Part shown: positions 30,530 through 51,346 of the stretch, piece by piece
Numbering within the stretch: position 1 is the stretch's first letter
How the letters are laid out: every line of letters begins with the position of its first letter
Source: Ascidia mentula
Taxonomy: Eukaryota > Chordata > Ascidiacea > Phlebobranchia > Ascidiidae
Assembly (NCBI GenBank): GCA_947561715.1
Contig: OX387199.1
Location: 2,423,001-2,487,000, forward strand
Direction of reading: 5' to 3'
DNA length: 64,000 bases
Notes under the pieces: model-generated
Told to the model about the DNA's origin: nothing
Databases searched by the model: none
The model's input: the letters and a program-made list of their open reading frames with translations, nothing else
Program-made: the position numbers and the translations under genes

Positions 30530-32484
30530 ATGGCAGAGTTACTGAACGTAAGAGTTGTCCCAGCATGTTTTGCCGATTGGAAGGATATAAAACAACTTTT
30601 AATTGATCGAAGATGGGAGGAATTCAACCCCATGTTCCGTTGCGCAGTTTTTAGGAATGTTTATTTTCACGTAAGTCAAAAGTTATTGCAGCGCAAAAAG
30701 TCAGCAATCGCCTGATGCATATGATCATTTAATTAGCTAATATGCCCATGGCGTTAAAATTGCACTAAAAATATACACATTCGTGTTGAAAGCGTCTGTA
30801 TATATTTTGCTATGATATGTTGTGTGATGACACAGAAACTGCACTTCTTTAGTTGTAACTCGTGTATCAGGGTTTTGCATTTACTCTGAGCGGCGTGTGT
30901 GCGACCGCAAGCTGCAGCGCTTGGACGAATTACTGCGCTTACATCCTACTTACGTATGCAACCTTTCTGCTAGCAACATACACGGCAGGTAGGCTTTATA
31001 ACGAGGTTTTGATGTGCTGTTGAAAGTTTTTTTGTAAATGGGTGTTTAACCTAAATCGTTATATTAAACTCATGTTGGTTATTGGTGTCAAAAATATGTA
31101 TGTTACTTGTCCTTAGTTAATAATTACTTTTTGTTCGTGTAATTGTATGTGGGAGTCTGTTCTTGTCAATCTTTCTAGGTATTGTGTAAGCTGCAGATGG
31201 CCACTGTTTTCACCTAAAAGGTCTCATCAGTGCAGCTGGTGTGACTATAAGACGACTTTGCTGACCAAACGGCCAAGCAAAGACATCCACTCTGTGGTGA
31301 CTATACAATCACCTCCATCCGTTGGGCAGCTTACACAATTCATATTATTGGCTCCACTTTGCTTTCTAGATACGTTCCAACACATTAAGAATCGATTGTA
31401 TGAACACACAACACTTTAAATTGTATAGTTTCTTACTATTCTTGTTGAAGACTCTAACGTTTTACAAGATCGCCAAACTATTTTACGTTGTAGCTGCCGT
31501 CTACTTTCACTTTGTGTGGATTCCGTGTAATCTGGGCGACGTGGAAAACGGAAAAGCGTTGCAGAGGAACTTCCTAGATCCCGAACGATGTGGAATGTGG
31601 ATGGCAGTGGCGGACAAATCAAATGGAGGCAAGGAATTACTTGGAATAACTGGGATCGGATCAATCGGCGATCGTGTGCATTCTGTTATTGGGAAAGACA
31701 GTTCAGCATCAAAAGGAATCGAGCTGCAGGTTTGTTTCACTTAAAGGCTTTGTGTTCAAGTTATGTTTTAAATAATTATTTTGTCTAAGAAACAGAATTC
31801 TCTTGGTTTGCAACTCATCAAGAAGACTGACTTTTGTAGTATCCCGTTTTGTGCTTGTTTTTTTTTTGTATCGCATTGTGAAGAGAGAGGAAACTCGCGA
31901 AAAGTTAGTGTACTTTAGAATACAAAAGTCAGTCTTCTTAAAGAGTGCAACACCAAGAGAATTCAGTTCGTTTGAATATATTAACCGATAGCTTCGATGT
32001 CTGTCCGGACAGCTACCGATACAAAATGTCGATCCTCTTTTTTTCTTCAGCTATGAATTAAAAGTACTTTTACCCATAATGCTGTTTATTCTAATATGAT
32101 GCATTTTCCTTTTGGTCGATAACATGACGAGATAACGTTGTGTTGTCCCATTACAATTGACCGAATTGTATCGTTAACCACTTTTCCGAAGACTATTAAA
32201 AATGTAAACTTGTATCGTCTATGTACCAGGCAGTGATGGTGAAACGGCAATACCGTGAGAAGGGGATTTTCAAATTGCTGATGAAAGCTGCATTGACGTG
32301 GGTAGAAGAACTGCAAAGAAAAGGGATGGACATTGGGTATTGTGGGCTCATGGTATTTAGTGAGCTCAAGGCTGCAAGAAGTGTTTACCTTAAGTATGAC
32401 TTTGTCGAAGTCGGACGAACGAGCTTGCCTGCGCTCGGGGGGATTTTTAACATACCTTATGTAGTTTATATGAAACGGTTGTGA
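30530..32484 (+). CDS. NAT8/camello-like membrane N-acetyltransferase, copy 1
   Basis: Exons 30530-30670, 30871-30988, 31494-31729 and 32230-32484 chain in phase to 249 residues. Exon 2 encodes a hydrophobic membrane segment (AYILLTYATFLLATYTA, about residues 70-86), extended into exon 3 (VYFHFVWIPC). Exon 3 carries the first GNAT strands (MWMAVADKSNGGKELLGITG), and exon 4 the acetyl-CoA-binding motif (AVMVKRQYREKGIFKLLMKA) and the final helix and strand (AARSVYLKYDFVEVGRT). The order, an N-terminal helix, a membrane anchor, then GNAT, is that of vertebrate NAT8/camello enzymes, which act at the ER/Golgi and acetylate cysteine conjugates or lysines; the substrate here is unknown. A paralogue with the same exon plan follows at 34780. 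Intron 2 holds a hammerhead-bearing repeat and intron 3 a foldback element. Confidence 0.8.
31181..31339. mobile_element. Short TIR element carrying hammerhead copy A
   Basis: The ends read ATTGTGTAAGCTGC (31181-31194) and its exact reverse complement (31326-31339). No reading frame. It lies in intron 2 of acetyltransferase copy 1. A related sequence at 50671-50885 shares the interior and also the flank ATTATTGGCTCCACTTTGCT, so the mobile unit may be larger than the inverted repeats. I see no clear target-site duplication. Confidence 0.65.
31189..31237 (-). ncRNA. Hammerhead ribozyme motif, type I, copy A
   Basis: On the minus strand: stem I strand AGCTGCA, core CTGATGAG, stem II ACC-TTTT-GGT with one extra A, then T-GAAAAC, a short stem III/loop region, cleavage triplet ATC (31198-31196) and the fully complementary stem I strand TGCAGCT. 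All seven stem I pairs match, including pair 1.1/2.1. The base before GAAA is U where C is usual (a G-U pair) and stem III is weak, so self-cleavage is uncertain. Confidence 0.6.
31795..31964. mobile_element. Foldback (long-TIR) element in an intron
   Basis: An arm of about 44 bp starting GAATTCTCTTGG (31795-31838) is repeated inverted at 31921-31964, ending CCAAGAGAATTC, with about 90% identity, around an 82 bp loop. No coding capacity. It lies in intron 3 of acetyltransferase copy 1 and is probably a MITE. Confidence 0.7.
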
Positions 32485-34779
32485 CAATTGCGTTGTTTGT
32501 AACAGTGATTCTTGACCATTATGTTGCCGAAGCCCATTTGAAATAACCAACTGGTTCACCCAATCCCAACGCTTTCCACGACGAATATACAGTTATAAAA
32601 AAATAAGAAACGAACACCAATGATTCACTAGAACTGATATCGTAGAAAATGTTGCTGCAATGCGGTAACAACGACCATTTGGTGTGACTTATACACGTTT
32701 CACTTGTCTAGGCAATAATTTGAATGTGTGGTTACCCACAGAAAGCATACATCGTCACATAGAAACAACATGCCATATCTAGTATGTATGTACGTAGGCC
32801 TACGCTCATTTATATCCAAATTTATGTTAGGAAAGTTGTGACGGTTGTGTTATTACGAAATGACCCACAAACTGCGCCAATTACTGTAGATTAAATTTCG
32901 CTGTTAGATAAAAAAAATAGTTACAATCTTATAGTGCATGCGCGATATTTTGAGATTGTGGTAGTAGGTCCTATTTTGTCATTTAAGAAAGATATTTTCC
33001 CATGTTTTCCAGAAGGGATTTTCGGTAAATAAGAGAGTAACCACAAGGATGATATCTTAGTTGGCACTTATGGTGAACACAGTACTGTATTTGTGCTTCG
33101 TCGATGTTTACCAGCAGATTTATAGCTTTGACTTTCCTCAAATCATGCACTTGACGATTATGCAATTGATTTTGTATTCAAACATTTCTTTACTGATACT
33201 GCCAGGTATATATCAACAAAAAGGCTCTTCTGGAAAAAGTTATCGTAAATATTAACGTTGCGGTTGCCATGCAGCAGCCTCATGTAGGAAGTACTCGTAT
33301 ACATGTGTAAAACAGCGCGGTCAAAAGCCGGGGTGCATTGTAGCGAACACAGTGTAATATTAATATGGAAAATGTGGTTTTAGCATTGTTTATATCTGTG
33401 ACCGGTTTCCCACGTAGAAAAGGACAACACAAACGTGATGCAATAATAATTACAGGCCGACCTGACTCCAAACCAATAACCTCTACTCTCCACTATTGTA
33501 ACTTGCTGATCCGCATTGACATTTTTCGAGGGTGCCTTTGACCAGTGCCACTGTATGTTTGCGGGTTGAATCCAACCATCCTGTGGTGATTCCACACGAT
33601 TCTATTACTTGTGGTTTCATTTGGAATGCTGCCGTAAGTTTAGACACCTCAATAAAAGATTGTTTACCTGATTGGTGTTGGATATACGGAATTTATAGAA
33701 GAACAAGCATTAAACGCAACAGCATAAACTGAAGAAGGATAGAAAAAACGATAAAATAAAGAATGATGGTGAATGGCGGGAAGGACACTAATAAGATTTA
33801 AGTAATCATCAACCACAAAAAGGTTGATGTGGTTAAAGTATTTTTCAGCTGAATTAATAACTGTGGCGTATTTCTATGTTAATTCCAATACAGTAATCTT
33901 GGTATAAATGGGTGCACTGACCCGGGACTGGGGCGTAGTACAAAAATATAACACTGCCGTATATCTGACTCCTGCTCTACTGTTTAAACAAAATCTGCAG
34001 ACCTTTAAGATTTACCCTCCAATTTAATTCATTAAAACAACAAAACACATCGACAACTTACAAACATCGCATAGAAACTGGTCCCAAACAATAGCTCGTA
34101 TAGTTAGGCGACAAACAACCCCTTTTTGCCTTGTCTCTATCTTGGTATTTTACTTGTCTCTGTGTGTCTCCCTCTCTCTTCCCCTTTACATGATGAATTT
34201 AAACGGGATATATAGCCAGAGTGAGTGTAGTTAATTGGGTTTAGGTTAAAGGAACACTACTTTAAAAAATGACGTTAGTGTTAAAGGTTATGACAAGATT
34301 GGTGCAGAACGTTTTAATGAGGTGGACGGAGCGCTACTTATGTCATCTAGCATGAATGATGAATTTTCGTTCGTTCTAATCGAGTTGACGTGAGTTTGGA
34401 AAGTGCCCGTGGCTAATTGTAACAGGTTGGTGTCGGGACAAAGCAATTGCGTGTTAAACAATAGCATCACGATACAGGGAACTGTTCTTTAATATGGCAC
34501 GATAGATGCATGGGGCAATCAGTTACGAAGCGACTGCAACGAAGAACGCTGTCCCGTGCTGCAAGGTATGGAGAAAAAGACACTTATATCGCCATGCAGT
34601 TTTCTCCTGTTTGCAGATAGCATGTCTACAACAGGATCTGTCCACGGGCCTTTCTAATCGGATATACGTGCATTTGTTGAGAAAAATTACTGCATTTGCT
34701 TGTTGCTGATTTTCTTACTTAGATTTTTGATTGATAAATAAACAGTATTTAAATAAACTCTACTGCTGATAAAGCAAGA
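32485..34779. other. Spacer between the two acetyltransferase genes
   Basis: No exon, RNA gene or clear repeat was found. Composition is AT-rich throughout. Confidence 0.4.
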
Positions 34780-36763
34780 ATGGTCGAACTGAAGGAGATA
34801 AAAGTTGTAACAGCGAGTGGTGGAGACTGGGAGGAGGTCAGACGAATTCTCGTTGCCCGGAATTGGGAGGAATTTCCTTTGCTGTACTCGCACACAGTCC
34901 TGGAAAATATTCCACTTCAGGTGATTTTCTGGGTTTTAGCAAGACTTAAAAATCATGTTTAATTTAACACAAAATAAGTAAATGGCATGGGCACCGTTAA
35001 AACCATAAAGGTTATCGAGTCAGGCGCCCATGTTTAAGGTGATCTCATCACGGAATATCACCGTCTGTCGAAGAAACTCAGCCAGTAATACTAGGGGTTG
35101 ATGTAAGCTTACGACAGGTTGCATTTGATGGTAGATGGTCACCGGGCGGGATAGGTGGATTCCATCCTAACAAATTCTCGACTTATACTATAAGTAGGCT
35201 ACAGAAGACCTACAATAACTTACATGATGAACTTCTCATTTCTCACCATTGTGTTGTAGTGTCTTCTCATCACCATAAGTTGTGGTGTCGCTTCCTACTT
35301 CACTCTCTGGAAGACCGTTTTGGCTTTTGCTATACTGACCTACGCTACTTTGCTTACAGCACTGTACTTGGCGGGTATGTATCTACACTAGGAATGAGGG
35401 ATGTTAGCATATTATTTTACACTATCATGTACAATAAAATGATATTTATTGCCTTGATAACGTTATCAAGACTGTAAACAGAATTGTATTCGTAAGGGTA
35501 TTATGGGCACTCTAGCACTGCAAGGTTAAAGCACTTTGCACGCGTTTGGCAAGTTAATAATTAAATTGAAAACGTAAGGGGCACGAAATGACAAAGCTCA
35601 AGTGCCAACAGGGTATGTTGGTAAAATCTCCACTCCAGAGAGTGAAGAGACTCATTTACCCAACCGCTTAACTCGTTGAAGTGACTACACCTGCAATGGC
35701 ATAGGGGAAGTACACCCGCACACATTGCTGCCTGTTTAAGATGGCTCGTTAGGATTTACTTTTTGTGTTATGCCTAAATTTACTCTGTTTCCTTTGCCAT
35801 ATCATCACGACTCTTTCCCTGCTTTAATGCAACTGTTCAATTTTGGCTCGTCAGTCGCAAAGTTTCCCTCTCCTGCTGCAGATTAATGAACTCTTTTAGG
35901 AACGAAAAGCACTAGAAACGACGTGCAGCGCTGGTCTCATAAACAGATAATCTTGTTTCAGCAATGCTGTACATGCAATTCATTTGGATCCCATATGTCT
36001 TGAAGAAGTTTGGCAACGAAACTGCCTTTAGGAATATCTACGTTGACCCCAGACACTGTGATATGTGGTTGGCGGTCAGGCAGAAGACGGGTGAAGCTAG
36101 AGAAGTGGTTGGAATAGCTGGCATTGGTTTCATAGTCAAGGATATTGCCCGAATTCTTGGGGAAGAAAACGTTTCGAAAGGAATAGAATTGCAGGTGAGG
36201 AGTCACAAAAACATCATTGTGTTTTTCAGTCATCGACACTAGTACACCAACCATGGTTATTAATTTGTGATCTAGGCGTAATAGGCGATAGTTATAATTA
36301 TACACGAATCTAGGTGTTGTTGTAAATATAACAGTGTTATGTATAACTGTTGTTACCACTGTTTCAATTAACAACAATAAATCCACAAGAATGATACCTT
36401 AGTACAATCACATATATATAGTTCGTCGTGTTTTAAAAAGATCCGACATGAAAATAAGAATTTGTTTCCAAACCTCATTATTCTACTATAGTAGATATAC
36501 CCTTGCAGGCTGTGATGGTGAAAAAAAATTATCGTCGTTTCGGTGTGTTTCGGTTGCTCTTTGAATCAGCCATGGAACGACTGAAACAACTAAACAAGGA
36601 AGGAATGGACATCAGGTTTTGTGTACTCATGGTCTGGGCAAAACTTGAGGCTGCGATAAACATTTATCCCACATACGGGTTCACTGAGATTGATAGAATT
36701 TATTATTCTTTTTTCGTTGGACCCTCCCAACTTCCGTATATTGTTTATCTGAAACAATTATAG
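34780..36763 (+). CDS. NAT8/camello-like membrane N-acetyltransferase, copy 2
   Basis: Exons 34780-34920, 35260-35374, 35962-36194 and 36509-36763 chain in phase to 247 residues. Exons 1 and 4 have exactly the same lengths as in the copy at 30530, and all splice phases agree, so the two arose by tandem duplication. Exon 2 encodes a membrane segment (VLAFAILTYATLLTALYLA). The GNAT core is conserved (MWLAVRQKTGEAREVVGIAG, AVMVKKNYRRFGVFRLL, YGFTEIDRIYY), as is the C-terminal PYIVYLKQL. The protein has diverged clearly from copy 1 in the loops, so the duplication is not recent. Both copies should face the same compartment; substrate unknown. Confidence 0.8.
34986..35064. repeat. Dispersed repeat copy, also at 11946-12030
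   Basis: GGGCACCGTTAAAACC through ATCACGGAATATCAC matches the copy at 11946 with small gaps. It sits in intron 1 of the second acetyltransferase gene. Confidence 0.5.
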
Positions 36764-36842
36764 AGGACTATTTTCAGAAACAGAAATGTATGTAGGAATG
36801 TGCTTGCTAGTCTAAAAGGTATAGCTCAGTGCCACAGTCACC

Positions 36843-36887
36843 AGCTGCACTGATGAGACCTTACAGGTCAAAACACTGTCTAAAGCT
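36843..36887 (+). ncRNA. Hammerhead ribozyme motif, copy B, decayed
   Basis: AGCTGCA, CTGATGAG, ACC-TTACA-GGT, then CAAAAC in place of CGAAAC, a very short stem III (AC...GT), the GTC site and a partly complementary stem I strand (TAAAGCT). The altered GAAA box suggests no activity. Confidence 0.5.
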
Positions 36888-37027
36888 CCCATTGAATATT
36901 ATGGCTTTTTCACACATATAGAAATGCATGTTTTTCAAGTATAATACGAAGGTGATCGTTTTATTCATTTACATGTAATATTTATAAATATAGCAAGTAT
37001 AACTTGAAGTCAAAAAGTCAGTTAATG

Positions 37028-37082
37028 AGCTGCGGACGGTTGCAAACACTTTTTCCACCTATGATGTCTCTCCAGTGCAGCT
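37028..37082 (-). ncRNA. Hammerhead-like motif, copy E, decayed
   Basis: On the minus strand: AGCTGCA, CTGGAGAG (core changed), ACATCATAGGT hairpin, GGAAAAA, then GTC followed by CGCAGCT. Order and spacing match the other copies, but the core is altered. Confidence 0.4.
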
Positions 37083-37834
37083 GGTGATCGACTTCGATCT
37101 TGACGGAAGGTAAATAGTCAGAAAGAGACCATGCCACTGGATTGCAGTCAAGCTTTACGGCACAGTGGAAGCCAATGAGAACTTACGGTGTGTAGCGAGC
37201 AACACAACCAAAGTAACTGTCTGACTGGAGTGTTGTTTTCTAATGCCTTAGACACACTCATCATTATACTCGACAATATACAGACACTTTCCGGTGGACA
37301 TAACGTTACGCATGCATTTTGTTTTACCAACGTCATGGTAATCTCTGTCTTAATCAACATGTTGATAGACATGATGCCAAAGAGCTTTGACAAAACAAGC
37401 AGCAACGCTTAAGTGAAATAGGAGTAACTGCGCGCATTCTTCTTGAGAGACGCGAAAAACTGGAGTCTCATATAAACGAAACATGCGGACTGATAGCTAC
37501 GATATAATGCATAATGCTAATGTTTAAAAGTTCCACTTCACAGCTGCTAGTCTTGAAATAAGTAAAGAGATGCTAAGTAGTATTCGTTATTACTTTATTG
37601 CGGACACTAAATATAAGTTCTCATACCAAATTTGCTCATATCTTTAGGCACTCTGGACGACGGGCCAAGATTGGTTGTTTTGAATCACGTGATTTAAAAA
37701 TTTGTGTCATACAAAACTATTAGCGACGATACGTTTTGTTGGCTACCAGCGACGATACAGGATATTGCAAAAATTAGATATACAAAGAATTGGGTACAAT
37801 ACGTTGGGGGGGGGTCCGTGAACGCGAGGGAATT

Positions 37835-39493
37835 TTATCCTGTTGGATGGTGGCATGCCGGAGCATGGTGAGCATGGTGAGCTGGGGTTGGTTGGTGATG
37901 GTGGGTTGGTTGGTGGTGGTGGTGGGTTGGTTGGTGGTGGTGGTTGTCATGGTGGTGGTGGTTGTCATGGTGATTGTCATGGTGATGATGTGCCTCCTTG
38001 TGGTGGTGTTGATCGTGAATGGCATCGTAGGAAGGCGGGGCGTGAGAATAAGATCCCTCCCTGTACAACTGAAACCACAAAAATCGTATAAGGTTCTGTG
38101 AAGAACAAAACGTTACAGGTTCAACTCTTACGCACGTCAAAAAAGACAAACAAAAAATTCAAGTTGTTTGTGAACCTGGACTCTCGTTTGGCACAATTTA
38201 ATGGCAGTTCTTGCTATGCCAACCACTGACAATTGTTGGAAACTATGAATAAATTATACGAAGGATCGAGAAAATAAACATGTCAGATATGTGCAGCAAA
38301 TTTTGTTACTTGGAACTGGAATTACTAAAGGTGGAAACGAATTGTACCGCACTAACAGAGCATTTGTCGTACCGGGTTTACAACTCCATTGTCGTCGGTT
38401 GCCACAGTGGTGACAGTTACGGTCCTGGGTGTGCGTCTCGAAGGTTGTTGCCGGCTTCGTCGTCTACAGTATGCGCCACAACTTGCAAGGAGCATCAGAG
38501 AGACGACGATTGCGGTCCAAACCCCTATGCAATATATCAGTCCATTGTACACACCACATACTTAAAGTAATAGTTGAACTCAACTTGCCAAGCAATGTAA
38601 CATATTTAACATGTAAACATGCTCTAGCATGGCAAAGGAGGGTTGCTTCACTACGAAAGACAGGCTTTACTTGGTGATATCAATTATCACATATAAATAT
38701 TTATAAAGTTTTCAGAAAGATCTTCTTCTAAGGACAACATGTCTGGCAGCATCAGTAACAAATTTGGAAGGAGAATTTTAATCTTAAATGAGAAAAATAC
38801 TGTTGGTACTTACACCACCATGTGTACCAAGCTGTGTAGGTGCAACAAAGTGCCACGCTTCCGTACCAACCGCAACAGTATCCAACCTCATCACCTTGAT
38901 CTGCCATACGAATATAAAAAACGTTTTAGGGGTGACAATAAGTGAACAAATGTTTGGGCATACCTGGACAATAGTAGTTGTTGCCACAGTTCTCAAAGCC
39001 CTGAGGAACACACATAGTTGTTAGTTGTAATGTTGTTTACTTTAAGAACGTAAATCATTGCAGACATACGATTGATGCGTTTGTATTAGGCTATATGCGC
39101 AAAAGAGCCATAATAATCAATGAGAGCTGCAGACATCTGTGTGCCTGCTAGTCTACCAGCTAGCACAGTGCCACTTCAACAGCTGCACTGATGAGACCTT
39201 ACAGGTCGAAAAAGTGCGTGTATACACCATGTCCCCAGCTCTCATTGTTTACATAGGCTATATTGTTTATCCGAAAGTTTATCAAACACTTCGCGAACGC
39301 TTGTAAGTTGTTGACGTGTTCTTGTGTGCAGGTTAGTTTTAACAAACGTGTGTAAGCAGTATTACAATGAACCTCGGGAGAACAGACATTTATCGTTTTA
39401 TGAGTTTGTTTTTACTTGACCAAATTGGCCACTCACCGCGACAGCATTTATACAGACCAGAAGTACAAAGGTGATTAATCCGCGTTTGATCAT
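37835..39493 (-). CDS. Shisa-like (STMC6-type) membrane protein with His-rich tail and PPSY motif
   Basis: Exons 39493-39437, 39000-38964, 38900-38814, 38560-38382 and 38068-37835 chain in phase to 197 residues. There is a signal peptide (MIKRGLITFVLLVCINAVA) and a short Cys-rich ectodomain (ENCGNNYYC, then YCCGWYGSVALCC) ending in WYTWW. One membrane segment (VWTAIVVSLMLLASCGAYC) is followed by CRRRSR and a cytoplasmic tail. The tail has a PPSY motif, which binds WW domains of NEDD4-type ligases, followed by about 50 residues that are mostly His with Asn, Gln, Pro and Thr. Signal peptide, CC pairs, one membrane helix and PPxY is the plan of the Shisa/WBP1-VOPP1/CYYR1 superfamily of adaptor proteins. 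A poly-His tail is unusual and might bind metal; that is speculation. Two paralogues lie upstream at 40528 and 45379. Confidence 0.75.
39118..39247. mobile_element. 130 bp short-TIR element carrying hammerhead copy C
   Basis: The ends are CAATGAGAGCTG (39118-39129) and its perfect reverse complement (39236-39247). The interior carries the hammerhead copy at 39181-39240. It lies in intron 1 of the first Shisa-like gene. No reading frame and no clear target-site duplication. Confidence 0.65.
39181..39240 (+). ncRNA. Hammerhead ribozyme motif, type I, copy C
   Basis: AGCTGCA, CTGATGAG, stem II ACC-TTACA-GGT, CGAAA, a region with a GTGTATACAC palindrome that could form stem III, then GTC and CCCAGCT. 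The catalytic core is intact. Stem I pairs over five bases (AGCTG with CAGCT) but the two pairs next to the core are mismatched. Confidence 0.6.
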
Positions 39494-40527
39494 CGCTATA
39501 AATTCTTGGTATCCAGTATAACCTTATAACTACCCTATGATGTACGAGGAAAATATTTTTACATGTACACCTCCAACACGAGGCTATTTCGTATTATTAT
39601 TATCATTACATTTTCCTTCATCTGTTGTACAGTGCAACACCAACCTAAACTTTTGCCTGTGGTAAATGAATGACTTGCAATCAAGACTCATGATCAGACT
39701 CGTGACGGGTCCATAGTGATGTTAATGTTTAAACGTGTTTTTGTTCGACTTGCGTGAGGCCACATGAATAGGAACTTATGTGTGTGTCAGACATTTTGAC
39801 TGAACACATTTCAAGCTCAAATACTGATATTCACAAAAATGGTGTAAAATAACGCTGGAAAGAGAATAACAACCAAGTTATTTCAAACACATCTTCAAAA
39901 ATGTTCAACGAGAAAACGCGACGAATACTTTCAGTGACCATTGCTTAAATATTCACCGAAGCTGAAAAGCGTTGCATAAATTTCTTAAAAAAACGTACGG
40001 TGAAACATTGTGTGCTTTGGTGCATTGTCAACGATACACGGATAAACGAACTGGCAAAATAGCGTGCGGCAGTTATTTGAAGAGAAAAACGAAAATCCAT
40101 CAACCCAGACACAATTGGTTGTGCATTGCGTAATCAGCAGAAAAAAAGTAGTACATAGTACGAGTACCCAATAAAACGACGTTTACTGCAAAAACATAGT
40201 AGACGAACATCTTCCGTGGTTTGTTACAACCAGACAAGTGATCAGACCTCGCATGTCGAGTGTGCAATGCAGCTCGCAAAAACAACGTTCTATTTAACAG
40301 TATTTGCATAACTTCGGCCACATTTGAGTCATGCAGAATAGTTTAAAACATCTTTATAAAACGCTTAAAAAGTGCTTCCAAAGGCGAGCGAGTTTCCGAT
40401 GCAAGAATTTTTAATTGGAGGGAAGGATCTTTAATCGCCAGGTGTCGCCCTGGAGCACGCCTCTCTCACGAAACCACGTTACATTGTGGTTGGAGCAATC
40501 TCAACTTCACTTGTTGACGTGCTTGTG
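39494..40527. other. Spacer between Shisa-like genes 1 and 2
   Basis: No exon or repeat recognised. It should hold the promoter of the first Shisa-like gene, but no TATA-like box stands out. Confidence 0.35.
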
Positions 40528-41259
40528 TTACAGATTGGTGATTGGTTTGTATTTCTTTGCCTTCCATGCGCATTTGGCCAGTTTGTAAAACTCGTAGCAT
40601 CCGAAGCAGGCGAGACAGGACAGAGCAATACTCACCCAGAAAACTGCAAATGCAAAATACGTCACTACATAAAGATAATACGCTATTGAAACCAAACAGT
40701 TTAACGATGAACAGCTTTGTAGTAAAATAGTACAAAAGTTGGTGATGATGAACATAGTTGTGTCGAAACGTTTTGCTTTGACTTTCTTATTCAAAGAGTA
40801 ATGTTAACCTTTCAATTGTACTCAATGAAAAGTTAAACCAGAACGATTATCATGAACTAATTTAACTTTTTAATAATCAAGTGGACGAATGCTTACACCA
40901 TCTTGCGAACCACGGTGCACAACAAACAGGAAACTGGTTATCCAACACCGATCCGCAGCAGTAATTCCACCCTGCAAAACACACGTGTTTTGTTGCTAAA
41001 AGGTATTATGGACATACTAACTTTACTGTAAACGTTAGCTTACAACATGAAAACAAAAACTTGTATCTTATTGGTTTGGTCATTTTAAACAAACAATGCA
41101 ATTGGCGCACAATTACTGTGTCGAGGAATATTGCATGCACGCTTTATTGACTAAGAAAGGTGTTGTGGGAATTGGCCTTATAGTCCAATAATTCTCTATT
41201 GGAGATAAAACGACAGTCTTACCTTCACATACATAACCATAGCCACAATCTTGCGATGC
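40528..41259 (-). CDS. Shisa-like membrane protein, short-tailed paralogue, first exon not found
   Basis: Exons 41259-41223, 40971-40897 and 40643-40528 chain in phase and encode SQDCGYGYVC, then NYCCGSVLDNQFPVCC and WFARW, a membrane segment (FFWVSIALSCLACFGC) and a short basic tail (KCAWKAKKYKPITNL) ending at a stop. Exon sizes and splice phases match the paralogues at 37835 and 45379 (37 nt ectodomain exon; the next exon ends TGG T|GTAAG). The tail lacks any PPxY motif. I could not find a signal-peptide exon upstream, so the 5' end is missing from this call; it should lie between 41260 and about 42600. It could be a functional gene or a partly degenerate copy. Confidence 0.6.
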
Positions 41260-43654
41260 CTGAAAAAAAACAAGCACATTTAGAATAAGTTAAGCACTAT
41301 ACAGTAACAAATTACGGCAATATATTGTTTCAACACTAGAGACAAAATAAGGTTCATCATGTCCAAATTTTCCAAAGTTTCAAATGTTCTTGTATGTATT
41401 CAAACGGGATGTCTCAGGTAGCAGAATTTCGATTATATTCAACTACTTTTTCTATTCTACTCACGTCTGTTAAAGATGGCATGCATGTGATGACAGAGAA
41501 ATGAAGAAAATTGTAAATCAAATCCATACAAGCAGATCTTGAAAAACTTCTTCAATCGCCTATCAACAAACTTCCTACACCTGTTGGCAACACAAGATAT
41601 TGAATCAGAATACGCAGCGTCCAGAAAAAAACCTACATTAACAACCGTCTCATTCCGCACATGTGGATTCAAAATACACTAGATCCGACGCAAATGATGC
41701 CTAGGGCGCTGAAAGGCTTACTGAAAGGCTTGTTGCACGTTTTATGTGAAGACACTGAATTCCTGTTTAAGGAACGCGCAGAGAGCAATGGAAAAGTCCA
41801 ATGTCCTTGGGCAGTTTCTAATATGTTCCAATAACTGACTTACGCCAGGCTCAGGGCGGCAACTAGTGGTATCTGTTCCTCATCCACAGTTTAGCGATAA
41901 GCGCTTCAAATTTTACCTGCTGTATTTATTTAAAATTATACTAAATTTTTCATAAGGTTACACTTTTGACCTTTCGCCTACTTACAAACTTGCTAGGTGA
42001 AGAACTAACGGTCGTATTTTAATTTTATTGACATGGTGCGTCATTTACGATATTTGTCAGACCGATTGCAAGGCGACGTCATTCATCAACTAAATACATG
42101 AAACAATTACACCGTTTGGGTTATAACCGAAATATTCCGATCACTTAAGGGCTGATGCCTGCTTTTACTCCGTAAGTTTTATTTTCATATTTCCATCATC
42201 TTCTGAGAAAACAAGTTTACGTCGCAAACAATCCCGGCAAACTTTTGTACACAACACAAATACTTTTGAAACAAAATCCGGAAGACCATGCAGTACGGGC
42301 TTAGAAACGCACACGTTTTGTGATACAAGTCACACCAATCACGTCTATATTTAGAATGGCGGGATCATAATTTCCCGGCAAGCCAGACATTCCCAATAAT
42401 CTGTAAACTGTCTCGCTAGAAGAACATTTGACATTGAACACGTTTAGGCGTGCGTGTGCAAAGATTATATATAATAAGTACGCGACCAAACCACATTAAA
42501 AAAACCTCGATCTCAAACTGTCGAGATATCCAACACGGTTTCAGCGCGTTCCGCTGAAGTAGGTTTTCAAATCCCACACATTAAAAGCATTACGAGCAAC
42601 GGTCGGTTTTGGTGGCTTGCAATCGCCCCGAGCTGCCTTGTATTTACGTTCAGCAGAGCGCGATTTGATATGCGTGCTTAAATATTATGCTTATCTTTTT
42701 TATATTAACTGCCCTGCACGCCGTAGTGCTGCTTTCTGCGAACATGTCACTACTAAAACGGTCGAGGAACGCGTTACTACTTCCTGTGATAGGATGTTTC
42801 ATTATAAGGCAATATGGTGGGCACTGTGTTCAGCACTACTGGTTTTGAAACGAGCATTTCCTCTTTTCTGTGGTATATTATTATGGTACATTTGCTTGGC
42901 ACATTCGTCATATTATTCCACAACTGAAAACCGAAATAAGCTATCAGGGCAAAAGTGTTTTTAGCGAGCTGTAAACGTAACGTCAGCTATTTGTGAAAAA
43001 TTATTTAACAACTCTTTATATTCAACAAGGAATGACCTCTACCCATATATCATGCAAACATTTTGATACCTGGAACAGGCTACCTTGATTCTTTAAGACT
43101 GTCCAGGACCCTTGCTCAAACGCATAAACTGCCTATCTTTAAAAACCAGAGTGTATTAATTCCACCCATTTAGTTGTCAGTCAAAAGCTCTGAACCAAGC
43201 CAGTACTACTCCCGCAAGTTTCCTGGCGATTCCAACGCACACGTGCCTTCTAGAACCTTTTTATCCACTGACTTGGAGACCTCATATTGAAAGAAGGTTT
43301 GTCAAACATTGGCTGTTTGTTCTGCGTGAGACGTTACTGCTAACCATCGTCACACGCCGTCACTACAACCACCACTAACCGCCGTCTTTAGAGTAAAGTT
43401 CACAACGTGAGAAACGAACCGTTCTGGCACACTGACTGCAATACTTGCTTGGTATGACTTCGTCGTAGCTGTAAGGGCCGTCAGCGTTGGCGTCTTTAAC
43501 GTACATACCCTCAAACGAGCTTGTCACGTTTAGCTCTGAAGCTTACGTCTCGTCACGCAAAGAGAAATTCTTGTTTTGTCCAACTCACATACCAAACCCC
43601 GGTAAAGGGCGTGTCGTCAAACACTACTGTCGTTTTTACTCATTTTAGGACCGC

Positions 43655-43658
43655 ATAC

Positions 43659-43697
<39 letters not shown>
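43655..43697. repeat. (TA)n microsatellite
   Basis: Roughly 20 TA dinucleotides, starting with a short ATACAT variant. Confidence 0.9.
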
Positions 43698-43699
<2 letters not shown>

Positions 43700-44332
43700 T
43701 TTTTAAATCTCGAGGCAACACACTCTAATGATCCACCTTCACTATCTTTCACAGACTGTCAAGTCCACTGCAAGTGACCTGTTTGTTTCTGCCCTTACCA
43801 CCAGCAAGAAGATCACGTGCACGAGATTTTGTGCAATCACATCCTTTGTTTGTCGTTGTATACAACAGTAACTATGGTTACCCTTGCCGAGGAGATACAT
43901 TTACACGCTAAAAAAACGCCTAACTTCTATTCTCCAAACGACGTTTGTTGACAAGCACTAAAGCGTGACGGTTTCAGAGGTCACATGACGTTATTCTCGC
44001 CCAACAAACCGTGACGCTATTTTCAGAAAATTTAGGCACCTGACTGCTACTCACGTGAGTGCTATTGGTCGGCGGATTGATGACGAAAATTTTCGTCGCC
44101 ACCGAATGAAGCAAGGGTGTAGTTTTATTTGAATGAGGTTTGGCAGTTATAGTCATGTGAGTGTTTTGTCATAATGACGATGGTGCACCAGGAAACGCGT
44201 TCGATAGCTTTTACAAATTTACGCGGCGTATCCAATGTGTGACGGTTTCTGCAACATTTATTTGCGATTCTGACCAAATGTAACGGCCAGAAGCAATTAA
44301 CAAAGCGTACCACCATGCTTTTGAAAAACTTA

Positions 44333-44640
44333 TCGTATTTACTCCATTGTAAGCCGCGACTTGTTAAATTTTTTAACCTACCGTTTGTGCGGCTTACAAT
44401 CGAGGACGGCTTACATTAATTAATGTCGCGCCGCTATTTTGTCTGCGCTCTGTACTTTAATGAAATTTACCATCAACTCGCTCCATCGTACCAATACGTT
44501 TTATCCCCCAAGGTTGTCAGCGTATCTGACTATTTTAAACGACAGATTTCTTGACAATATTGTTGTAGGGCACCTAAGTTTGCCTTTAACATTTACGTGT
44601 GGTTCGTCCGGGGGCGGCTTAAAATCGAGGAAACACGGTA
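44333..44640. mobile_element. MITE-like element, about 308 bp
   Basis: The left end (CGTATTTACTCCATTGTAAG then CCGC) is an imperfect inverted copy of the right end (GCGGCTTAAAATCGAGGAAA then CACGG). The interior matches the copy at 21562-21766. Non-coding and probably non-autonomous. Confidence 0.6.
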
Positions 44641-44729
44641 ATCAATAACAACAACATACATCTGTTTTTAAAAGATTTGGTTATTGGCTGACTTATCATC
44701 ACTAACGCTGCGTTGTTTTGCCGAAACAT

Positions 44730-44836
44730 ACAATATAGTACCACTGCCATACAGCTATTATAATAACGCACTGATAAGACCTTATTTTTAAAGTATAGGT
44801 CGAAACAGTGGGCATCTATATGCAGTTTACACTATT
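44730..44836 (+). repeat. Short inverted-end repeat with decayed hammerhead, copy D
   Basis: Ends ACAATATAGT and ACTATTGT. The interior has CTGATAAG (core changed), an ACC...GGT hairpin enlarged by inserted bases, CGAAAC, then CAGTGGGCATC and TGCAGTTTACAC as in copy A. The order is that of the hammerhead family, but the core is altered. Confidence 0.5.
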
Positions 44837-45378
44837 GTAATATTGTTAAAACACAAACCAAAAGTACATCAGTTTGTAATAAAACCTGCTTTAAAAACCA
44901 GAAACGGTATGAAGCAGTCTGTAATTGATGAAGGAACAAGCATTGTATACATTTATGGACAAACAGCGCACTGAAAAGGCAAATTACTTTGAAAACGAAC
45001 ATGTTTTTGTACATTTGTACGCATAAAAAGCATGCTTCCTACACATGTAAGTGCACAATCAACCAACATATGTACATATGACACGAAAAAGCGGAAAAGC
45101 TGGCGGGTAAATGATGATGCGACGGACAGAGGTGTAATAAAAATGACAGGACAAACACAAATTGTTTAAGATTATTATTTATCGTGTATTTCGTTCGGGA
45201 TCCTTGCAACACAGAAGAGACAGAGGGCCGGTTTTTTAAACAGAAACTCATAATCCATGTCGATAATTTGGACAAAAGTCCAACGGAAACACGTAAAGCA
45301 CTTTGAAGGATAAAAACAGATAAAAATAATCGCCTACAGTGAAAAAAATTAATTTTTGTTTTGTCCCAGTCAGTTGAG

Positions 45379-48300
45379 CTAAGTTGGGCGGTAAGTCGTG
45401 TAGGGGGGTGGGGCGGTTGCGGGCGCTTCGTAAGGCAGATACATATTCTTGAACGCTCCTGTCTTGCTGTAGTCCTGCGAATTCGCTATTTCTTGATACG
45501 TGGGCGGAAAATCGGGTGGGTGAACTGGCTGCAATGACAACGACGACAAAAGTTGAGGCAAAGTGTTCACGTTAGATAACAATTTGCTGCAGAAATATTT
45601 AAATATCAACATGACGAAATCGCCTAGTTAATTTTTGAGAATGGAAATTGCCTCCACAAGCTAACAGTCCAGAGTTTTTTTCGTAGCAAGAGTCGAAATG
45701 GGTGTGCAGAGAATGCGCAGGTTTTTGATATTTGGATAGAAGAACGCTTGTTTAAACATCACAAGACAAAGCGCTTCTCGGAACCAAAGCGAATATTTGT
45801 TTACAGGAACTTAGTTTCGTATTACAACCGCATTTCACCCGAGGCAACATTTAATACTTTCACCTGGGGGTGTGGTGGGTAGTGCAGACCTTCAGAAGCG
45901 CCGTGTTGATTGTTTGTGGTTGTTGTTGTCATCGCGATCGCTGTTTGTCTGTTTGTTCTGGAGGTTGCTCCAACCCTTCTGTTGTGCTTGACCTTTGACC
46001 TCTTGCACCAGTAGGTTATGCACCCGCTCACCAACATGATCGAAACAGCCAGGATAAACCAGAAGTCTACAAGGAACGCACAAAAGATTTGAAGTTTTGT
46101 TACATATTTTGACCGCAATCTCCTTACCGCCTCTAGCGTCCGCTAATATGTTATCTATGACCGCTTCTGGGTGTAGTGACCTGAGACCATGCATGCGTGG
46201 AAGTAACGCGAAGGACATGTGGTGTGAAGCGCTCGTTTGTTTTGGCCGTTTTTACGTTTTGAATAAAGGCATTTGTACCCTACTGGTTTTAAGCAGGTCC
46301 TACGAGCCTTGTAAAAGATAAACGTTATACAATTTAAACATTTTACACAACCGCCGCTTGTTGTTAATCAGATCTCGGTTGGAATAATTCCTGTGTGTTC
46401 CACTTTGTGTGAACGGCACTACGGTGGTGCCCAGCGTGTGTCATGTTTTATGCAAGTGTCGTAACCGCGAAACATGTCGGTCCTGCTACGCTCCATGACC
46501 GATTTCAAATAGGAATAATATATAGGAACGATTTAAAAGGGAAGATATGACGTTATTCACCACATCACACTCACGTATTTTACGCCAATTGCTCTCAATA
46601 TAAATAAACATGATCAAACTTTAAGAGCGTCGTTAAGCCGCGGGGACATAGAAGCTATTCTGAACCATTAATAATTGAGAGGCGCAGCGTTTATAATTGT
46701 GAAATTTCATAGCGCTCGGTGATAAGTTGTCACACAGGGTTGGTCTCCCATTAAATTTACACGAGCCAACAGTCGGTGCCCGCTTGTTATTACCCCGCAA
46801 AATAACTTTCTATTTTTACGGCATATTTCTCGTTATTCCGTACGCTGGTTTCTAAAGTCACGATGACTGAGAGTTAGTTGTTAAACCCACAACTATGCTG
46901 CAGCACGCGTGATAACGCCTGACTCAATGGTGGTCGTGTTGGTTTTACCGATGCCATGACTCAGAATTTTGAAGTTATTGTTGATATGCTTCTCTTTTTT
47001 TAGGCTATTTTTTGTCATCTACATTGGTCACGAAAACATTTGAAACTAAACACAGCGTTCTGTAACATAAGTTACTACGTTATTTTAAGCACGTTCTTGT
47101 TGCTTTTTGCACATCATTTATTTTGCATAAACACTACTGATAATTGCGCAATTTATCGTTATAAGGGTGACTTAGGGTTAACTGCGACTTACACCATCTT
47201 GCGTACCACCTCCAGTAGTAACAGCACTTATCTCCGCAGCAGTATGCAACCTGGGTGAAGAAATCTGAAAACAGGAAAACACGTTAAATACCATTCAGTT
47301 GGGATTGGGTCGTATGGGAATTACCTCGGCAACGATCATCATCGCATCGACGGTTATTGCGGAAAGCCTAAACAACACAGAACCTGTTTAGTCGAACTTA
47401 TGGCAATAGTTATAGATATAATTTTTTTACACATCAAAACTACATAAAAAAACTACATATTGGAGTTTTCTTAACGATATGTTGCATTCAGCTAACCAAG
47501 TAAAGCCAACGATACCAAGTCATGTGTTTTAGGTTAGAGACTGCTGTTAACACATTATTCTACAGTTCAGTGACTTAAAGCATTTCTTTGAAATCTATAC
47601 TTCTTATGTTTCCGGACGAGTTGTTAAGATTTGAAGATTTGAAGATTTTGTAAAAGGTGACGCGCCCGAAGGAGGTTGGATTTAATTATTTGGCAGGGAA
47701 TTGCTCTAATACTTTCTTTGTCAAAAATTCCCACTCAAAATAGGTGGCCTATCGGACAATGCGAATGATCACAAACTTCACAATGAGAACGAAGGGCTGA
47801 GCACATAGATACGGCTTTTGTGTGGGTAAAGTGGATGTTTTGATGTCTGAGCAACCGTTTGCCTAGCGAACACGGATCCCGATATTACAAAAGTACGTTG
47901 TTTTGTTCCCGGCTGTCTTTCAGCGTAGCGCTCCATTATACTAAGCGGTTTTCTGCGACTGAAAAACGAGTTTATTGTCCGTTATATGCTGTTACTCCTT
48001 TACATGTTTACGTTGTCAACGCTTTCCGTATGAAGCGCATAACCATGTGGTTCCCGTGTTTGTTTTGTTGTTGTTGTTGTTTTTGTTGTTTTAAGTCATA
48101 AGCTTATCGGTGAAAACGAGTAAAAACGTCACGTTTGTTGAAACAATACTAAACGTTGCATGTAATACAGTATCACCACACATTGATGCTACCTTATATA
48201 TCCTTCTTGCAATTTAGGAGAAAGTTTTGACAAAGGTTTGGTTTCTGATATCTTGTGTACAAACTGGCAGTCAGTTTACTGTTGTTAGCAGTTCTTTACA

Positions 48301-48404
48301 ACAAAGCTAATTACTAATTTGGCTTAAAAAATTAACTAATTTTAACTTACCAAAGCAGTACCAGCCTGGTATAGTAAGCCCACAACCAGATACCAGCTCA
48401 TCAT
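45379..48404 (-). CDS. Shisa-like membrane protein with PPTY and PPPY motifs
   Basis: Exons 48404-48351, 47367-47325, 47264-47193, 46066-45864 and 45528-45379 chain in phase to 173 residues. There is a signal peptide (MMSWYLVVGLLYQAGTAL), a Cys-rich ectodomain (RRCDDDRC, then YCCGDKCCYYWRWYARW) and one membrane segment (FWFILAVSIMLVSGCITYWC) followed by KRSKVK. The tail carries PPTY in FPPTYQEIA and PPPY in APPPYTTY near the C-terminus, two candidate WW-domain ligands. ATG at 48404 is used because it gives the full signal peptide; a second ATG follows directly. Superfamily role (trafficking or ubiquitin-ligase adaptor) is inferred from the plan, not shown. Confidence 0.75.
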
Positions 48405-49292
48405 AAATCTATCGGCCAAGTAATTAAGTACAGTTCAAACTTAATCAGCAGTGTAGTTGTAACGATACGTAACCCACTGTTAAACGCTGCAACGAAAACA
48501 TGCTGGATGTGATAAAATCGCAAAATGTAACAACTGGGGTACAAAAAAACACGCACAGCAGTTACTACTCAACGAATCGCACTGCCTTTAACTGAATACA
48601 TTGACAAATGACCTTCCACTGCTAAAACTACCTCATGTTTGTCTGGTGCGGGTCCAATTGCGTACTTTTGCAACGTTTGAATTGTGCTGGTGTCAGGTAA
48701 CGCACTGCGATCTCTTTTATGTTTATAGGGCCGCTGTAAAACCAGGCCAGAATAATGTTACGTGTCTGCTTTAGGCTGTTGATTGTTACGCAGTTCAACT
48801 GGCGTAAAACCAAACAAGTTATAATACTTGACAAGCTAAACTTACATATCGTACGTACACAGAACATATTCGCATATTCGCACTTACACTACTCACATTT
48901 GAACTTGCTAAACTCCCGAATACTCTGTCACAAATTACACAGCATGCACAAACTGTTTGACAGCTTTGTAACATTTGGCTCGCATTTAAAAAGCTGCAAC
49001 TATTTTTTACGTAGTTGCCTTTCATTCGAACATCCTGCGTTTCACACATTGGAACTAAACTGGTAGCTGCTATGTGACTTAATAAGTAACGGTCCACGTA
49101 GTACCTGGGCTTGTGTTCGCTTACGCTCGACTGTGCGTAAAAAATGCGTGTCCTCACCTGCTATTTTCGTCTGCAGAAATGGAGCGTCCGCGTTGTCGTA
49201 AGCCACCATGATTTGGCGAATTCTGGGGAGTCTGTATTGTGGCAGGACAATAGGCTTTTCCCCATTGTACTGCGAGAACAAACCACCGTGGT

Positions 49293-49440
49293 GTTGTTTG
49301 GTCTCGGGAGCCAAACCAAAGTCACATTAGAGTTTCGTGTGCCTTTGTTCCTCAGCGCAAATGCTTTATGAGGTTGTTACGATACGCATGACTGAACAAA
49401 GAAAGTCATCTTTTCCTGTATACGCGCCCATATGTAATGT
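49293..49440. repeat. Direct repeat, copy 1 (about 148 bp)
   Basis: TTGTTTGGTCTCGGGAGCCA through TATACGCGCCCATATGTAA is repeated almost exactly at 51203-51346, with only a few differences. Flanking sequence is unrelated. No coding frame is shared convincingly. Confidence 0.8.
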
Positions 49441-50670
49441 ACTTTGAAAAATGGACGGTTTATTACATTGCTTTGAAACTTTCGATTTAAAATTGCCGCA
49501 TTGGACGAGGTTTGCCAATCATAAACTTAGTAGTTCAGTTAGAATCGTTGTAGTGCTTTGCTTTGCGGTTGCAGCGAAATGTAATCAACACCACGGATTA
49601 CACATGATTTGGTCGCAATTACCCGCTCTAATGGGCACTATAAATATACTGTACGTACGTGGATGGTCAAAATAAACCTGCCCTGAAACCGTTTACTACA
49701 TATCACCATTATATCTTTTTGTCGGGTTCTGATTCAATAAACCTCCGTTTTTTCATTAATTATTGTGTATAAAATGAACGGAAACAGTTTATTGTGGTAA
49801 GGACTTCAAGCACACAATTAATTTATTTATATTTTTCTGTGGCCCGGCTCCAAAATAAAATTTGAATGGAAATCCTTCACGCGATCCATAAAGATCTTTT
49901 AAACCCCTTCGGAGTGTACAAATATATTTTTTGCCAATTTAATTATGATTTGTGAGTTGCAGAGGCTCTTTCGGTCAACAACGTTGGTCGAGGGTGTAAT
50001 ATAATAACAATATGGTACACAGGCGATATGACAATATAACGTTCAATATAACGATATGACAAAACGTATGGGATTTGCACTACTATAGCCTCAGTCAACA
50101 CTTGCGTCATGAAAGTACGCATGCTTATTATCATCTGAATGACACCATTGACGAGTCGAAAAAAATAAACAACTTTCTTTTTCTCAATGCTGAAACTGAA
50201 AGTTGGCTGTTTCGGTAAAATAATTCTAACCGGAGGGTCGTACCGGCTGGTGTGCGCAAATATAGTTTTGTGAAACTTGAATTTAGTGAATTTATTCACT
50301 TACCTATAGTATACGAAGACGTAATGGTTTATTTTTTCCAGTAAATTCAATCGTTTCGGTCAGAATATTTTTTCCTTCAACTTATCTTCATATTGATTTG
50401 GATTGTAGGCGAAAATCAATTAAATAATGAAATAGCATTGAATGTGGGACAACGATGTTTGATGAGTCCAGTCAGCGACGGGAAGAATAAAGGACTTTTC
50501 AGATCAAAGCAAATTGTCCCACTAATATTTTCATTATTTTCTCCATAACCACAACTCAGGACACAGCGATCTTATCGTTGAATTAAACAACGTTTCAACA
50601 CGTGGCTTAATCAGGTTTCGGGTGAGCGAAAACCAACAAATTTGATAACACAAGTGGACTACCAAAACCA

Positions 50671-50885
50671 ATTGTGTAAGCTGCAGACAGATGGCCACTG
50701 TTTCGACCTAAAAGGTCTCACCAGTGCATCTGGTGTGACCTTCAGACGACTTTGCTGACCAAACGGCCAAGCAAAGACTTCCACTTTGTTGTGACTATAC
50801 AATCACCGTCATCCGTTGGGCTCCAAACTAGGTGCAACCTCACGGAGAAAAAAATTATTGGCTCCACTTTGCTAACAAAAATCAA
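50671..50885 (-). repeat. Hammerhead-bearing repeat, copy F, relative of copy A
   Basis: It starts with ATTGTGTAAGCTGC like copy A and shares its interior (ACTTTGCTGACCAAACGGCC) and outer flank (ATTATTGGCTCCACTTTGCT). On the minus strand it has CTGGTGAG, ACC-TTTTA-GGT and CGAAAC. One core base differs, four bases are inserted in stem I, and the right inverted end is missing, so it is probably inactive. Confidence 0.55.
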
Positions 50886-51202
50886 GACAACAAAACCCCA
50901 TCTTTCTAACCGACGGAGAATCCAGACGTAATTAAGTTCGGATAAATGACATGGAAATACTTGAATGCTATAACCGTTAGATGGAGGTAGAGCGTCAGTA
51001 CTTGCCAAATGGGAAAAAAAATTTGGAAGAAAGTGCAGTAGACAAACTTGCATTGTATTTTTACAGCCCACCGGTAGTGTAAGTAAACCGAAATGGTTCT
51101 AGTAAATTGTGTGGTGTTCTGGTGAGAATCTAACGGCTGGCGCAGTTATTTTTTGGTTGTGTTTTCCACTCACTGCAAGAATCTTACAAGTATACGAAAT
51201 AT

Positions 51203-51346
51203 TGTTTGGTCTCGGGAGCCAAACCAAAGTCACATTAGAGTTTCGTGTGCCTGTTCCTCAGCGCAAATGCTTTATGAGGTTGTTACGATACGCATGACTG
51301 AACAAAGAAAGTCATCTTCTCCTGTATACGCGCCCATATGTAAAGT
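51203..51346. repeat. Direct repeat, copy 2
   Basis: Near-identical to 49293-49440; it differs by a small deletion (TTTGTTCC versus TGTTCC) and a few substitutions. The high identity points to recent mobility or duplication. Confidence 0.8.

Follow-up and report, generated by a model that had tools for sequence, protein, structure and literature searches.

Six short repeats with a hammerhead ribozyme motif lie within 20 kb of one another in a 64,000-nt stretch of the Ascidia mentula genome (assembly GCA_947561715.1, contig OX387199.1, positions 2,423,001 to 2,487,000, forward strand; this whole stretch is called the window), which raises the question of what kind of mobile element they are and which enzyme has spread them. 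An earlier note on the window had described these six loci (here copies A to F) as a dispersed repeat family with type I hammerheads, akin to animal retrozymes and Penelope-like elements (PLEs), and this description holds. Here we present a survey of the repeats in the window and in the genome assembly (196 Mb, 79 contigs; the window sits on contig C52). Most likely the repeats are two related non-autonomous retrozymes of the metazoan type, spread by the reverse transcriptase/GIY-YIG endonuclease machinery of PLEs acting from both target strands.

Repeat unit, ends and orientation of the copies

Intact copies of the hammerhead read AGCTGCA / CTGATGA / GACC-loop-GGTC / GAAA / CAG-loop-CTG / TC / TGCAGCT, with a stem I of 7 bp, a stem II of 4 bp, a stem III of 4 bp counting the closing A-U (A-U, C-G, A-U, G-C) and a GUC site. 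The CUGANGA and GAAA core, stems I to III, a UH cleavage site and the open stem I of a type I hammerhead are thus all present, and from the sequence we infer that intact copies cleave themselves. The ATC site and minimal stem III given in the earlier note have to be replaced by the GTC and the 4-bp stem III of the intact copies; its ATC is loop III sequence in family 1. The exact canonical pattern has 611 + 604 = 1,215 matches genome-wide (reversed control 0 + 0), a pattern with a looser core 913 + 923 (reversed control 0 + 0), and the family, which the earlier note had described from one 20-kb segment, occurs across the genome.

Two families are distinguished by loop III and by unit length. 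With position 1 defined as the first base 3' of GUC, the unit of family 1 measures 284 nt from cleavage site to cleavage site (L041, L047) and that of family 2 291 nt. When a family-1 copy is aligned with a family-2 copy, the hammerhead part is identical at 40/49 positions and three other parts at 32/50, 49/85 and 60/90, so that the hammerhead appears to have been retained in both families although loop III differs. Direct tandems have a spacing of 285/286 and 294. One array (C1:3332455-3334219) consists of one antisense and six sense units, another (C1:17581349-17582694) of two antisense and four sense units.

Some tens of the more than 1,200 hammerhead copies were read in detail. The survey of family-1 ends covered the copies most similar to copy A, namely loci L021-L049 (L021 is copy A) together with copy F and a seventh copy from the window; the nested or rearranged loci L033 and L047, and L050, which is the L049 locus, were left out of the end count. 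S and L ends were called by eye. The outer ends of family-1 copies fall at two positions of the unit about 32 nt apart, S (approximately position 14) and L (approximately position 46). Twenty of the 29 scored copies are two-armed and nine single-armed (eight with an S end, one with an L end). All two-armed copies (20/20) have an antisense left and a sense right arm, that is, they are head-to-head, and combine one S end with one L end; the L arm is short in L039 (about 10 nt) and in copy F (about 20 nt), whereas arms longer than one unit occur in L040, L041 and L048. Stem I lies within the inverted repeats at the element ends, as the earlier note had it. Exact target-site duplications (TSDs) of at least 8 bp are present at the ends of 20 of 31 family-1 copies and range from 8 to 16 bp; a match of 8 bp at L042 was disregarded because it is not adjacent to the element ends; 19 TSDs of 9-16 bp consist of 78% A+T. 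In family 2, L015, L017 and window copy D are two-armed with a TSD, each with one S and one L end, while L010, whose end is S, and four copies that end at L (L011, L014, L082 and copy B) are single-armed in appearance.

Among 100 listed of the 1,215 exact hammerheads, opposite-strand neighbors no more than 1.2 kb apart are minus-plus in 11 cases and plus-minus in none, and those on one strand plus-plus in eight and minus-minus in two. A genome search for GIY-YIG gave 134 matches at E <=0.01, whose neighbors within 6 kb are minus-plus in 19 cases, plus-minus in none, plus-plus in five and minus-minus in one, so that all close opposite-strand PLE pairs (19/19) are head-to-head. Two PLE open reading frames (ORFs) examined, of 892 and 876 aa, contain RVT_1 and GIY-YIG, the domain pair of PLEs.

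From 33 PLE loci (L053-L085) 16 rows with inverted arms were analyzed, nine of which, with a TSD of at least 11 bp, correspond to seven independent loci (L063 is L064, and L071 and L080 have one TSD in common); 4/16 rows are without TSD. In all seven loci one end is flush (<=8 bp) and the other longer, by 33, 35, 35, 36, 24, 84 and 83 bp; two of these loci were checked by eye. The extension of 33-36 bp in four of the seven is close to the S-to-L distance of 32 nt. The family of L078 and L081 has a longer tail, of about 84 bp where the others have about 35 bp. Since head-to-head arms with one end longer than the other occur in both, retrozymes and PLEs have one insertion grammar in this genome: the head-to-head arms, the extra tail on one end and the TSD expected of insertion by a PLE are all found in the retrozyme copies.

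At L083 (G000:C67:6133000-6139000) the PLEs form a tandem that repeats every 2,870 bp, has 99.96% identity across 2,416 compared bp and contains an ORF of 892 aa, which by its sequence appears to be a recent insertion or amplification. Two hits on C1 4.8 kb apart, considered as a PLE with two pseudo-long terminal repeats (pLTRs), were rejected as such; they result from a 2.9-kb duplication (95.6% identical) that carries one retrozyme copy twice and is without a long ORF.

Copies in the window

A family-specific covariance model was required because Rfam gave no usable match at gathering or relaxed thresholds. This model, R1, has 65 positions and 15 pairs and was trained on 26 copies, 25 from outside the window and copy F. 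It matches all six named loci (6/6, E 7.6e-25 to 5.9e-9), which are therefore real members of the family. The copies and their hammerheads are as follows.

31179..31361, minus strand: copy A, family 1, two-armed head-to-head, left end S and right end L; the antisense arm, about 150 nt long and ending at S, contains the hammerhead, and the sense arm, about 33 nt long, ends at L
31171-31178 and 31362-31369: TSD of copy A, CTTTCTAG
31182..31242, minus strand: hammerhead of copy A, R1 59.3 bits, E 1.4e-16
36794..36919, plus strand: copy B, family 2, single-armed, L end
36782-36793 and 36920-36931: imperfect TSD of copy B (one mismatch, by eye)
36838..36894, plus strand: hammerhead of copy B, decayed, R1 47.2 bits
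37021..37087, minus strand: hammerhead of copy C, decayed, CTGGAGA core, R1 35.7 bits, E 5.9e-9
39097..39253, plus strand: copy D, family 2, two-armed, antisense left arm with L end and sense right arm with S end
39087-39096 and 39254-39263: TSD of copy D, TAGGCTATAT
39176..39247, plus strand: hammerhead of copy D, in the sense right arm, R1 47.0 bits
44760..44834, plus strand: hammerhead of copy E, decayed, loop II expanded, CTGATAA core, R1 44.1 bits
50673..50873, minus strand: copy F, family 1, two-armed, imperfect TSD by eye; antisense S arm of about 182 nt, sense L arm of 20 nt at 50854-50873
50672..50736, minus strand: hammerhead of copy F, R1 85.0 bits, E 7.6e-25 (F is among the 26 training sequences)
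15517..15565, plus strand: seventh copy, 49 bp, S end, R1 17.1 bits, E 0.0059
15507-15516 and 15566-15575: exact 10-bp TSD of the seventh copy, TATATGCTGT

The hammerhead of copy F is the best preserved in the window, with a CTGGTGA core and one mismatch in stem I. In copy A the alignment to R1 has a 4-nt deletion which takes out part of stem III and the GTC site, and this hammerhead is probably inactive. In copy B the GAAA carries a G to A change and the region of stem III is deleted, while copy D has an intact core and stem II with stems I and III partly mispaired. The seventh copy, which the earlier note does not have, is missing the ribozyme core between both stem I strands; it looks as if the reverse transcriptase had skipped the ribozyme hairpin or a small deletion had occurred at a CTG repeat. 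Three further and weaker R1 matches in the window (E 0.066 to 0.5) are apparently chance hits. Scanned with a descriptor of intact-like hammerheads, the window gave one, copy F, against one in total in 20 order-1 Markov random windows. Because the scan finds F alone, the other five are regarded as decayed and are recognized by family homology.

Several of the six sites have direct or inverted repeats of 40-134 nt in common. A direct repeat of about 150 bp (97-100% identical; 49294-49443 and 51202-51349, 1.9 kb apart) brackets copy F and may be either an unrelated element or a small duplication. The window also contains two adjacent Zic-like zinc finger genes (3352-4660 and 7149-8526), the second of which has a reading frame closest to ascidian ZicL, with the best match in Phallusia mammillata (67% identity).

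Proposed route of insertion and rival explanations

Features of both families would be accounted for by the following route. A multi-unit transcript, with one type I hammerhead in each unit of 284 or 291 nt, would cut itself at GUC, and a host ligase might seal the monomer into a circle, as has been suggested for animal retrozymes elsewhere. PLEs are abundant in the genome, and their reverse transcriptase/GIY-YIG endonuclease would then copy the retrozyme RNA into it: the PLE protein would cut both target strands about 12 bp apart, and each target 3' end would prime cDNA at one fixed internal site, S (about nt 14) or L (about nt 46). With one strand using S and the other L, the two first-strand cDNAs would be joined to a head-to-head insert with S and L ends, and extension of one strand alone would yield a single-armed, 5'-truncated copy.

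Both S and L are situated just 3' of the cleavage site, and the S arms continue across it into the hammerhead; the template of the S arms was therefore not a linear self-cut monomer. It was either a re-closed circle or an uncut multimer, which DNA alone cannot separate; many S arms stop near positions 37-87, by eye about one turn from their start, which would fit a circular template. Both cDNAs coming from one circle is unsupported, as the arm lengths are not significantly anticorrelated. We put forward tentatively, at slightly below an even chance, that the RNA copied by the PLE protein is a small ribozyme circle, that copying begins simultaneously on the two strands of a single target break, at two fixed sites about 32 nt apart, that the outward first-strand cDNAs, of one or several turns, are joined, that retrozymes are partners of PLEs resembling short interspersed nuclear elements, and that the position of the hammerhead, immediately upstream of the priming sites, restricts mobilization to uncut or re-closed template.

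A number of observations weigh against the retrozyme reading with PLE-driven insertion. No autonomous PLE with this unit or the same tail was identified among L053-L085, for which 30 of the 134 PLE matches were fetched. Positions 1-60 of the unit match one of the 33 PLE loci (L072), there within an old retrozyme copy, and none of the 12 PLE matches on C1 below 18.9 Mb lies within 30 kb of a listed exact hammerhead. At L072, L082 and L054/L061/L084, the last three being duplicates of one region, R1 detects decayed hammerheads no more than 1.5 kb from GIY-YIG. We read all of these as neighboring retrozyme copies, less firmly so at L054/L061, where the hammerhead may instead be part of a PLE. The hammerhead of L054 and L061 counts as one event because a 98%-identical duplication spans both fetched stretches:

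L054 937-999 and L061 937-999, minus strand: decayed hammerhead, located downstream of a GIY-YIG match at a distance of about 0.5 kb

The ends, too, provide exceptions. L002 of family 2 is two-armed in appearance with a left end at neither S nor L and no TSD, and three PLE rows with a match of 8-10 bp (L075, L085 and one of L084) break the rule of one longer end, matches of this length being expected by chance. The anticorrelation of arm lengths predicted for one circle was not significant (Spearman -0.14, p 0.56; without L041 -0.34, p 0.16). On the side of the ribozyme, the Rfam scan of the window delivered no match at the gathering cut-off, and RF00008 (Hammerhead_3) gave a sub-threshold match at copy D (19.9 bits, E 5.7) and no match over the whole genome; the genome-wide best for RF00163, with 73 of 27,659 first-look candidates scored, was 26.7 bits, under the 34-bit cut-off. 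Stem covariation was sought in the copies and not detectable, 81 of 500 shuffles being as good, because the stems scarcely vary (95.9% of alignment cells paired). Finally, the predicted fold of the isolated RNA favors a non-hammerhead structure (-18.0 vs -15.7 kcal/mol).

This last structure leads to one of the rival explanations, in which the hammerhead-like sequence is kept for another reason, e.g. as a protein-binding hairpin, and is no ribozyme. The competing hairpin, CACTG:CAGTG plus GACC:GGTC (columns 11-15 with 39-43 of alignment A1), is paired in 96.6% of cells, has the more stable predicted fold, and the TG beside stem III is retained in both families. We nevertheless consider this explanation very improbable, as a stem I of 7 bp and the GUC site recur in the hammerhead register together with CTGATGA and GAAA, the hairpin has no need of stem I, and related animal retrozymes cleave in vitro (PMC7229834). 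The hairpin would block the hammerhead core and might serve in circular RNA to turn the ribozyme on and off; speculatively, it might shield closed circles from cutting.

The remaining rivals accept the hammerhead and differ in what moved it. The earlier note had seen a ribozyme with ends like those of miniature inverted-repeat transposable elements (MITEs), i.e. short DNA transposons with terminal inverted repeats in which the hammerhead would be incidental, and many copies do have inverted outer sequence and flanking duplications. Two equal inverted ends and a TSD of fixed length were not found: the two ends stop at different positions of the unit in every two-armed copy (20/20), 9/29 scored copies are one-armed without an inverted end, exact TSDs vary between 8 and 16 bp, and direct multimers occur at 285-nt spacing, which leaves the MITE explanation with hardly any credibility. 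Movement by a long interspersed nuclear element (LINE) via twin priming would also give inverted segments, but in LINE copies made by twin priming the 3' end is constant and the inverted 5' part varies, whereas both outer ends of the two-armed copies are fixed sites, as in PLEs; a LINE as the mover is thus very unlikely. Unlikely as well, although less so than the other rivals, is that the repeats are no independent retrozyme lineage and are solo pLTR remnants of one particular autonomous PLE that has this hammerhead. The insertion grammar shared with PLEs speaks for it, as do the decayed hammerheads close to GIY-YIG at L054/L061, L072 and L082. In addition, upstream of the element ends in the PLE family of L078 and L081 there is a weak motif resembling a hammerhead (R1 16.3 bits, E 0.019), with CTGAAGA, GAAA and a stem I of ACAGAAA/TTTCTGT:

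L078 953-1007 and 2029-2083; L081 1086-1140 and 2141-2195: weak hammerhead-like motif

Against such an origin stand the 33 PLE loci, none of which was recognized as a PLE with this unit, and the direct 284-nt multimers, which suggest amplification as a unit.

Comparison with known systems

Metazoan non-LTR retrozymes (LTR, long terminal repeat; Cervera and de la Pena 2020, PMC7229834) are described with a type I hammerhead, units of 170-400 nt, direct tandems and TSDs >4 bp. The repeats of A. mentula resemble them in all four respects, with units of 284 and 291 nt, direct tandems and TSDs of 8-16 bp, and differ in that 20 of the 29 copies scored have their arms joined head-to-head and end at two separate fixed positions; the main text of PMC7229834 makes no mention of inverted or head-to-head copies, a tail, a tunicate, an ascidian or Ciona. 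Type I hammerheads as such were already known from tunicates, with nine loci reported in Didemnum vexillum (PMC8704543). Plant LTR retrozymes (PMC4918200) are likewise hammerhead-bearing non-autonomous retroelements but have LTRs, type III hammerheads and 4-bp TSDs (as stated in PMC7229834), unlike the repeats described here.

PLEs have been regarded as strong candidates for the mobilization of retrozymes because the type I hammerhead and the tandem arrangement are common to both and the two coexist (PMC7229834, and similarly PMC11722881). According to PMC3846280, the pLTRs of rotifer PLEs are inverted, mostly head-to-head; their TSDs measure 8-10 bp, and one of the inverted pLTRs carries a tail of 31 bp. 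The purified PLE protein of Anolis cuts and extends both target strands, and its reverse transcription starts at two internal sites matching the 30-40 bp tail of the genomic copies (PMC11167929). In the A. mentula repeats, too, copies are head-to-head and flanked by TSDs, one end is longer by about 30-40 bp, and a hammerhead lies near the ends; they differ from autonomous PLEs in that a unit of 284 nt (291 nt) is too short for an ORF with reverse transcriptase and endonuclease, and from the minimal PLE hammerheads reported in PMC7761336 in their 4-bp stem III.

A PLE insertion signature on a retrozyme seems to be new: no report of one was found in the literature at the level of titles and abstract openings, with few subscription papers covered. 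The retrozyme carries a signature which in vitro work has assigned to the PLE protein, beside PLEs with the same signature, and the question of the retrozyme-spreading enzyme therefore becomes testable with an existing assay. The S and L ends and the head-to-head orientation provide a simple genomic test for other retrozyme-bearing animals. The insertion pattern hints at the enzyme that spreads ribozyme repeats, which here share the unit and the hammerhead type of the metazoan retrozymes and the ends of the PLEs.

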